From Deltaproteobacteria bacterium (GTDB taxonomy: Bacteria > Desulfobacterota > GWC2-55-46): 37,175 bases of DNA. Shown one piece after another: positions 5,780 to 37,152 of this stretch; position 1 is the stretch's first letter; each line of letters begins with the position of its first letter. The notes below the pieces were generated by a model. It was not told the origin of the DNA, did no database searches, and saw only the letters and a list, made by a program, of their open reading frames with translations. The stretch covers positions 1-37,175 of the forward strand of contig JACRCH010000021.1 in NCBI GenBank assembly GCA_016219115.1, written 5' to 3'. The position numbers were made by a program, and so were the translations under genes.

Positions 5780-5888
5780 AATGAACCACCCCGCAAGCCT
5801 TGCTGCGGGGTATCTCCTTAAACCTCCCCTCCCCCATCGAGGGGGAGGATTTTACAAGGAAACAAGCTACAGGGAATTTTGTGATTAA
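5780..5888 (+). repeat. Element B short form, fused to element A copy 1
   Basis: aatgaaccaccccgcaagccttgctgcggggtatctccttaaacctcccctcccccatcgagggggaggattttacaag...ctacagggaattttgtgattaaa, running into element A. Confidence 0.9.
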
Positions 5889-5999
5889 AATTCTCCACCA
5901 TAAATGACGGAAAATTTTGATGGTATGGAAGGTCATTTTTATTTGCCAGCCTTGACCCGCCGCTAAAGCGACGGGATTGCGGAGTGGCACACCCATTCA
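5884..5999 (+). repeat. Element A copy 1 (two-hairpin intergenic repeat, ~116 bp)
   Basis: attaaaattctccaccataaatgacggaaaattttgatggtatggaaggtcatttttatttgccagccttgacccgccgctaaagcgacgggattgcggagtggcacacccattca; near-identical to 3 other loci here. Confidence 0.95.
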
Positions 6000-8155: not shown

Positions 8156-8270
8156 ATTAAAATTCTCCGCCATAAATGACTGAGAATTTTGATGGTATGG
8201 AAGGTCATTTTTATTTGCCAGCCTTGACCCGCCGCTAAAGCGACGGGATTGCGGCTGGCACACCCATTCA
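8156..8270 (+). repeat. Element A copy 2
   Basis: Same module as 5884-5999; ends gcggctggcacacccattca. Confidence 0.95.
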
Positions 8271-8276
8271 TCCTGA

Positions 8277-8314
8277 AATGAACCCCCGCCGGTTTGAAAA
8301 ATGGCGGAGGTTTT
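8277..8314 (+). repeat. ATGAACC-type head plus hairpin, solo module upstream of ilvB
   Basis: aatgaacccccgccggtttgaaaaatggcggaggtttt; stem AACCcCCGCC/GGCGGaGGTT. Confidence 0.7.
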
Positions 8315-8349: not shown

Positions 8350-10050
8350 ATGAAGAAAAACGGCGCCCTGATATTCCTTGAATGTCTCAAGAAAGAAGGC
8401 GTGGACACCATCTTCGGTTTCCCCGGCGGCGTGGTGCTGCCTATTTACGACGCGCTCTACGACTTCGACCTCAACCACATACTTGTCCGCCACGAGCAGG
8501 GAGCGGTACACATGGCCGACGGGTACGCGAGGGCCACGGGAAGGCCCGGGGTCGTCCTCGTCACATCCGGGCCCGGCGCCACAAATACCGTAACGGGCAT
8601 AGCCACGGCCTACATGGACTCTATCCCGGTCGTCGTCTTCACGGGCCAGGTCCCAACGGAATTGATCGGCAACGACGCCTTTCAGGAGGCCGACATAGTA
8701 GGGATAACCCGGCCTTGCACCAAGCACAACTACCTCGTCAAGGACATAAAAGACCTCCCGAGGATCATAAAGGAGGCCTTCTACATAGCCACGACCGGCA
8801 GACCCGGCCCTGTCCTGGTAGACCTCCCAAAGGACGTCTTGACCGCGGAGGTCAGCGAGTACAAGTACCCGGACAAGGTGCATATAGAGAGCTACCAGCC
8901 CACCTACGCCGGGCACCCGGGGCAGATAAAGAAGGCGGTGGATTTTATCCTTAAGTCCAAAAGGCCCGTGATCTACGCCGGGGGCGGCGTGGTGCTTTCG
9001 AACGCGGCGGCGGAGTTGAAGGCGCTGGCGACGAAATTGAACATCCCGGCCACGACCACGCTGATGGGGCTTGGCGGGTTTCCGGGCACGCACCCTCTTT
9101 TCATGGGCATGCTCGGCATGCACGGCACATATACCGCCAACATGTCCGTTACGAACACCGATTGTCTCATCGCCGTAGGCGCGCGTTTTGACGACCGCGT
9201 CACCGGAAAGATCGACGAGTTCGCGCCGTACGCCGGGATCGTGCATATAGACATCGACCCGACCTCTATCAGCAAAAACGTCAAGGTCGATATCCCGATA
9301 GTCGGGGACGTGAAAAATGTCCTTAAGGAGTTGATAAGGCATCTGCCGAAGGCCAACGCCTTGAAGGCCTACGCCGGGGGGCTTTCCGAATGGCACGCGC
9401 AGATAAAGAAGTGGAACGCCGCTCACAAGCTCTCGTACAGGCAGGTGCCCGGGGGCAAGATCAAGCCCCAGTATGTCATAGAGAGGCTTTACGCGGCCAC
9501 TAAGGGAGACGCCATAATAACGACCGAGGTCGGGCAGAACCAGATGTGGGCGGCCCAGTTCTTCAAGTACGACAAACCGCGCACCTTCATCTCGTCCGGG
9601 GGCCTCGGGACGATGGGCTTCGGCTTTCCGGCCGCCATCGGCGCGCAGATAGCGATGCCCGGCAAGACCGTCATAGGGATAGCCGGAGACGGGTCGCTGC
9701 AGATGAACATACAGGAGCTCGCTACGGCCGTTCAGTACAAGCTCCCGGTGAAGATAGCCATACTCAACAACATGGTCCTCGGCATGGTCAGGCAGTGGCA
9801 GGAGTTCTTCTTCAACAAGAGGTACTCCCACACCTGCATCTCGGTCGCCCCTGATTTCGTCAAGCTCGCCGATGCTTACGGAGCCGTGGGCCTGAGGGCA
9901 ACGGCCCCGGAAGAGGTCGACCGTGTGATAAAAGAGGCGCTGGCCGTGAAGGACAGGCCGGTCTTGATGGACTTCAAGGTAGACCAGTTCGAGCCGGTCC
10001 TCCCGATGGTCCCGGCAGGCCAGCCTCTTAACAAGATGCTGCTTGTATAA
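8350..10050 (+). CDS. ilvB: Acetolactate synthase, large (catalytic) subunit
   Basis: [36 protein letters not shown]..., ThDP motif [29 protein letters not shown]. The ORF track starts at 8278, but residues 1-24 come from an intergenic repeat; ATG 8350 is the likely start. Confidence 0.96.
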
Positions 10051-10083
10051 CGCTTTCATCCCCGCGACTTGCCGCTGGGAGAT

Positions 10084-10199
10084 TGAATGGGTGTGCCACT
10101 CCTTGACCCGTCGCTTTAGCGGCGGGTCAAGGAGTGGCAAATACAAATGATCTTCCATACCATCAAAATTCTACGTCATTTATGGCGGAGAATTTTAAT
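10084..10199 (-). repeat. Element A copy 3 (inverted)
   Basis: tgaatgggtgtgccactccttgacccgtcgctttagcggcgggtcaaggagtggcaaatacaaatgatcttccataccatcaaaattctacgtcatttatggcggagaattttaat, reverse orientation of copy 1. Confidence 0.95.
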
Positions 10200-16773: not shown

Positions 16774-17424
16774 ATGAGCCATAGACCCCGGGTATCTCAT
16801 TCCATCCTGTACGAATGGTTCGCCCCGCTCTACGACCTTGGGGTGTGGCTTCTGGCGCTCCCTTTGGGGGGAGAGGCCGCCATCAGGGAGAAGGTGATAG
16901 AGAAAGCCTCTCCCCTGAACGGCATGAAGACCCTGGAGATATTCTCCGGCACCGCGAGCTTATCGCTTCTGGCGGCCCGGAGGGGCGCAAGCCCTATCGC
17001 CTTCGATATAAGCACCGGGATGCTCAAGGCGGCTCGGTTCAAGGCGGCAAGATCGGACTTAAAGCTGAATCTTGTCAGGGGTGATGCCGCAATGCTGCCT
17101 TTCGGCGAGGGCGAGTTCGACAGGGTGATAGTCTCGATGGGACTACACGAAACGGAGCCTTCGACGGTCCCGCAGATACTTAAAGAGTCCTACAGAGTGC
17201 TTAAAGACGGCGGCAGGCTGATACTCTTCGATTTTTACGGAGCGGAGGAAGGCGGCCCTAGGGTGATGCAGTCCCTCTTTTTCACCTTCGCCGAGGGCGA
17301 GACCGCTAAAGCGTGGGTCAGGACGGATGTGCAGGCTATTGTCTCAGGGACGGGTTTTAAGAACTTCAAGCGGGAGTTTCTGCACAGACGGGCCTTTCAG
17401 CTCCTGACGGCGGAGAAGAGATGA
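16774..17424 (+). CDS. SAM-dependent class I methyltransferase
   Basis: YEWFAPLYDLGVWL; MKTLEIFSGTASLSLLAARRGASPIAFDISTGML; FGEGEFDRVIVSMGLHE; VLKDGGRLILFDFYG. UbiE-like arrangement. Confidence 0.85.
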   Translation: MSHRPRVSHSILYEWFAPLYDLGVWLLALPLGGEAAIREKVIEKASPLNGMKTLEIFSGTASLSLLAARRGASPIAFDISTGMLKAARFKAARSDLKLNLVRGDAAMLPFGEGEFDRVIVSMGLHETEPSTVPQILKESYRVLKDGGRLILFDFYGAEEGGPRVMQSLFFTFAEGETAKAWVRTDVQAIVSGTGFKNFKREFLHRRAFQLLTAEKR

Positions 17425-17452
17425 GCCACCCCGCAAGCCTTGCCGGCGGGGT
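17421..17452 (+). repeat. ATGAACC-type head plus hairpin, solo module
   Basis: atgagccaccccgcaagccttgccggcggggt; stem ACCCCGC/GCGGGGT. Confidence 0.75.
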
Positions 17453-17505
17453 ATCCGTTGGGAGGTCTGTTTTTATATGCGCGGCAAGCCGCGCATAATT
17501 CAACC

Positions 17506-17531
17506 CGAAGGAAATATCAAAACGCAGCCTC
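17506..17531. repeat. Short dispersed module shared with 37016-37040
   Basis: attcaacccgaaggaaatatcaaaac here; reverse complement of gttttaatatttccttcgggttgaat near 37017-37041. Confidence 0.7.
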
Positions 17532-37036: not shown

Positions 37037-37152
37037 TGAATGGGTGTGCCACTCCGCAATCCCGTCGCTTTAGCGGCGGGTCAAGGCTGGCAAATAAAAA
37101 TGACCTTCCATACCATCAAAATTCTCCGTCATTCATGGCGGAGAATTTTAAT
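37037..37152 (-). repeat. Element A copy 4 (inverted, near window end)
   Basis: Reverse orientation; its 46-nt palindrome core is identical to the reverse complement of copy 1. Confidence 0.95.

Follow-up and report, generated by a model that had tools for sequence, protein, structure and literature searches.

Here, we report that element A, a two-hairpin repeat of about 111 bp that has about 100 copies in the 2.3 Mb draft genome (G000) of a deltaproteobacterium, is a non-autonomous mobile repeat that inserts precisely 3' of TTGAAT-like sites, and that the normal state of its head hairpin is a stem with a conserved asymmetric internal loop. In a minority of the copies the head is homogenised, that is, one arm is the exact complement of the other. 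With a probability of about 0.7, the best joint explanation combines this mode of insertion, the asymmetry of the head hairpin and the copying of one arm from the other by template switching in a minority of the copies.

The window analysed here is a stretch of 37,175 nucleotides from G000, in which nhmmer, together with an alignment of some 100 copies, delimited four copies. Copy 3 (10085–10199, forward strand) sits between ilvB, which ends at 10050, and ilvN, which starts at about 10245. From the comparison of empty and filled sites elsewhere, its mobile part is probably 10089–10199, after the target-like TTGAAT at 10083–10088. The head hairpin (10094–10139, forward strand) reads TGCCACTCCTTGACCCGTCGC TTTA GCGGCGGGTCAAGGAGTGGCA. 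As the initial annotation had described, it has 21-nt arms (10094–10114 and 10119–10139) around a 4-nt loop (10115–10118), with a single mismatch, the T·G wobble between T10111 and G10122. The left inner block TTGA (10103–10106) is the complement of TCAA (10127–10130) in the right arm. The second hairpin occupies 10165–10196 on the same strand, and the right end AAT comes next. This head is the only hairpin in the window with arms of at least 19 nt, at most one mismatch and a loop of 3–6 nt, and none of the same quality occurred in 40 Markov-simulated windows. Folded as single-stranded DNA, it reaches –27.1 kcal/mol, compared with –11.7 kcal/mol for the common asymmetric head.

The other three copies also read as first quoted. 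Writing the head classes as left outer/left inner/right outer block, copy 1 (5884–5998, reverse strand) carries ACTCC/GCAAT/CTGG, the asymmetric majority form. Copy 4 (37038–37152, forward strand), nested in a second repeat termed B, has an identical core. Copy 2 (8156–8269, reverse strand) carries GCC/GCAAT/CTGG, with the outer arms matched and the inner blocks unmatched. Copy 2 ends 8 bp ahead of the ATG of the open reading frame at 8278, which is ilvB by position, and it may cut this gene off from its usual leader. As for copy 3, no element A was found in any ilvN locus searched in the relatives, where the ilvB–ilvN spacer is too diverged to reveal a precise empty site.

The consensus of element A consists of GGGTG, the head hairpin, AAATACAAATGATCTTCCATACCATC, the second hairpin and TTTTAAT at the right end, the whole following the target TTGAAT. 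The element is present in 19 of the 59 genomes searched, G000 included; the carriers belong mostly to the same family, plus one other family of the order. The relatives named through ilvN are uncultured deltaproteobacterial metagenome assemblies. No Rfam family matched the window at the gathering threshold, and element A has no Rfam match. Partial and composite forms also occur. At L051, and at L062 near 7214, in G000, TTTTAATATTTCC directly abuts the second-hairpin half: either the head was deleted, or this is an older form of the element that lacks it. The second hairpin also stands alone at loci of the sister genome G001 such as L244, L282 and L285, in opposite orientation (TTAAAATTCTCCGCCATGAATGGCGGAGAATTTTGATGGTACGGA). 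In the right flanks of L039, L064 and L063 in G000, a third module (CACAAAATTCCCTGTAGCTTG...CCTCCCCCTCGATGGGGGAGGG) directly follows element A in several copies, again with a join at an AAT end.

The mobility of the element is evident from its insertion sites. There are 41 empty sites, in which TTGAAT is joined exactly or near-exactly to TAAGCG, against about 58 filled ones. The latter are left junctions of element A nested in repeat B, and the former are copies of repeat B in G000 with the empty site CTTCGGGTTGAAT joined to TAAGCGCGG, with no more than three mismatches (18 are exact). One repeat B without element A lies in the window (17421–17515, reverse strand), with the near-exact empty target GGGTTGAAT joined to TATGCGCGG. 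Outside repeat B, element A copies lie in unique sequence, nearly always immediately 3' of T-GAAT. Therefore, the insertion of element A is precise and clean. The sites show no target duplication, although one of 3 bp (AAT) is possible, as AAT closes both the target and the right end.

Repeat B is itself a high-copy palindromic repeat (ATTTCCTTCGGGTTGAAT, the junction, then TAAGCGCGGCTTGCCGCG...GGGGTGGTTCAT), seen at 17421–17515 and in 41 places in G000. It has apparently been inserted after TTTAAT-like sites and is the preferred landing place of element A. The right flank of L086 in G000 holds a further palindromic insert within repeat B, between CGCGTAT and ATAAAAACAG; the nesting is therefore at least three deep.

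A candidate for the moving enzyme was sought in the same genomes. Neither a Y1 transposase (Y1_Tnp) nor TnpB was detected in G000, the same-genus G001 or G012, all of which are drafts, and no RAYT-like protein was found in any of the three. Near the Y1 genes of relatives, models of element A matched only at chance level, and no ends of the element were found there. Across the relatives, the presence of element A showed no association with Y1 genes, as judged by eye.

The 100 classified heads of G000 fall into five types, namely ACTCC/GCAAT/CTGG (59), GCC/GCAAT/CTGG (20), GCC/TTGA/CTGG (10), ACTCC/GCAAT/AGTG (7) and ACTCC/TTGA/AGTG (4). The right inner block TCAA is almost invariant among them, and the left TTGA is therefore its complement. 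The inner asymmetry, GCAAT on the left and TCAA on the right, is kept across genera and is the common form in G000, G001, G012, G019 and others. Since it is common in most other genera read, the asymmetric inner block is taken as ancestral; judged by this comparison, the symmetric form of the block is the derived state. The outer arms have a different history. They remain paired across genera, and both symmetric combinations, GCC/CTGG and ACTCC/AGTG, occur in other genera and therefore look old. ACTCC/CTGG is found mainly in G000, and this majority head looks like a derived mosaic of the two old symmetric alleles. Copy 3 itself requires one step if it started from the ACTCC/GCAAT/AGTG form and two if it started from the majority head. 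According to the initial annotation, each difference between copies reflects the replacement of one arm by the partner's complement. This describes the inner block of copy 3 well, whereas for the outer arms of copies 1, 2 and 4 the two old alleles and their mosaic are the better reading.

Several observations argue for copying between the arms. In 14 of the 100 classified G000 heads, on several tail backgrounds, the left arm carries multi-base changes that are the exact complement of the right. On a tree of the tails, the symmetric heads are not clustered (10 changes; shuffled mean 11.6). In Fisher tests, which were picked after viewing the data and involve copies that are not independent, matched outer arms accompany 14/14 homogenised heads but 27/86 others (p = 8e-7), changes of the centre that the partner arm predicts, inverted loops among them, occur in 6/14 against 2/86 (p = 6e-5), and the inverted loop TAAA itself in 3/14 against 0/86 (p = 0.002). 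The joint match of inner and outer blocks in all 14 is what a continuous copied tract would give. The head of L042 equals rc(R)-TAAA-R exactly, and in L072 the entire centre is inverted. In G001 the loops are more variable and the pattern of loop inversion is less clear-cut. L044_6695 and L062_9958 share the same tail, and the left arm of L044_6695 complements its right arm throughout, so that its alternative head could be a one-step copy. The apparent direction of copying also differs. In the G000 heads the left arm carries the complement of the right, while G001 L223 shows the reverse, with a right arm GGGATTACGGAG that occurs in no other fetched locus. Consequently, exchange with another copy is not an easy source for it. 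Long symmetric heads were also found elsewhere, in G001, G008, G012 and G020.

Taken over whole arms, the correlation is clear in G001 and in all genomes together with shuffling within genome (0/2000 shuffles reach the observed value in each case), and marginal in G000 (57/2000), since variation in the right inner arm is minimal there; the exact-complement and tract tests were therefore used for that genome instead. The initial annotation had read hairpin template switching or a similar correction from the window copies. The 14 heads, L223 and the inverted loops bear marks typical of template switching within one molecule and support this reading for a minority of the copies, but not as a general rule. 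Point mutations in the arms are mostly unmirrored and largely independent, and the one orthologue that the sister genome yielded shows independent, unmirrored changes in the two arms. The orthologue search gave this single usable pair, and none that shows a site before and after such a replacement. In the second hairpin some clean double changes occur, such as T-A to A-T in L052_449; only clean cases are cited, as truncated or misparsed copies inflate the excess of double changes there.

Could the symmetric heads instead have spread among the copies? One or a few old symmetric heads passed around by ectopic recombination or gene conversion would need no recurrent switching. Head and tail are indeed unlinked, identical tails bearing different heads, so the copies do exchange sequence and could have passed such heads around, although the draft assembly might inflate the apparent shuffling. 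The majority head ACTCC/CTGG also looks like a recombinant of the two symmetric types. However, the right arm of L223 has no donor among the fetched copies, and the 14 symmetric heads have 8 types of centre. Partner-predicted changes and inverted loops are unexpected from recombination with asymmetric copies. Moreover, none of the 100 classified heads shows the mixture GCC+AGTG or ACTCC+TTGA+CTGG. We therefore regard spread alone as unlikely. That the symmetric copies are ancestral, with the asymmetric ones formed by ordinary divergence or as mosaics, is quite improbable for the head as a whole: it holds for the outer arms, but for the inner block it is contradicted by the prevalence of GCAAT/TCAA across genera.

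Selection for a well-paired hairpin through separate compensatory point mutations would also make the arms covary across genomes, as in the shuffling test, and would suit both the clean double changes of the second hairpin and the lasting pairing of the outer arms. Nevertheless, the change from GCAAT to TTGA alters the length together with several bases, with no intermediate seen in G000, and the conserved internal loop speaks against selection for perfect pairing, so that we give this explanation very little credence. Finally, assembling about 100 near-identical repeats from short reads could produce chimeric or palindromic heads, and G000 is a draft in 143 contigs with many copies of element A at contig ends. 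Yet a 46-nt palindrome is short enough for one read to span, and G012, which is better assembled (about 30 contigs), has symmetric heads too; an artefact is hardly to be believed.

Under the template-switching explanation, a replicating strand would take the partner arm in the hairpin as its new template and copy it, which would leave the arm as an exact complement, and a switch to the opposite strand would leave the 4-nt loop inverted. The resulting long perfect arms then appear to have their centres corrected or inverted more often. Such footprints are known. In yeast inverted repeats, template switching leaves arm homogenisation and spacer inversion, the latter on already perfect arms in 9/10 cases (PMC8604942), and the same footprints are seen in rRNA hairpins (PMC8794818). 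E. coli makes quasipalindrome template-switch changes in lacZ reporters (PMC7202029). Similarly, the imperfect inverted repeat of element A, with its 4-nt loop, is perfected in a multi-base step, and its loop inversions are confined in G000 to heads with perfect inner arms. Unlike the reporters, element A comprises about 100 natural copies in uncultured bacteria and is known by comparison alone.

As a mobile unit, element A resembles the miniature elements derived from IS200/IS605, which are palindrome-associated transposable elements. It has a subterminal hairpin near each end, no terminal inverted repeats were seen, it inserts 3' of a fixed short motif with clean empty sites, and its right end TTTTAAT resembles the target TTGAAT. 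It differs in that no autonomous relative or TnpA with the same ends was found and no base-pairing guide was identified. Like the REPs moved by TnpA_REP (RAYT), it is an imperfect palindrome in high copy number, mostly between genes, and the bulge in its stem is conserved (PMC8266576, PMC3733652, PMC2817692), and like BIME mosaics it is combined with other palindromic modules. However, it is a longer two-hairpin unit with defined ends, and GGGTG rather than the GTAG (or CGTC) tag of REPs precedes its stem.

In E. coli REPs, the transposase needs the stem bulge, and correcting the bulge severely cuts or abolishes activity (PMC8266576). By analogy, the conserved internal loop of element A may be a recognition feature and homogenisation an inactivating change. 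Homogenised heads would probably be poor substrates for the moving enzyme, given that it is the asymmetric loop that is conserved and that identical sister copies are limited to this form. Identical twins occur for 0/14 symmetric copies against 25/79 (p = 0.018), a weak difference that older copies with more time to change would fit equally. It is a tentative idea, more doubtful than not, that template switching causes the one-way decay of a bulge-dependent mobile hairpin, from an active asymmetric head to a perfect palindrome that the transposase refuses. If so, the fraction of homogenised heads would record the history of activity of element A.

The template-switch mechanism is already known; the present results point to it across a whole family of bacterial mobile repeats. 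An asymmetric stem that is conserved and repeated about 100 times per genome makes element A a natural set of replicates for template switching between arms: no reporter is needed to count the events or to read their direction. The element also joins two literatures, that on template-switch mutation and that on single-strand transposition, in which a stem bulge can be required for activity.
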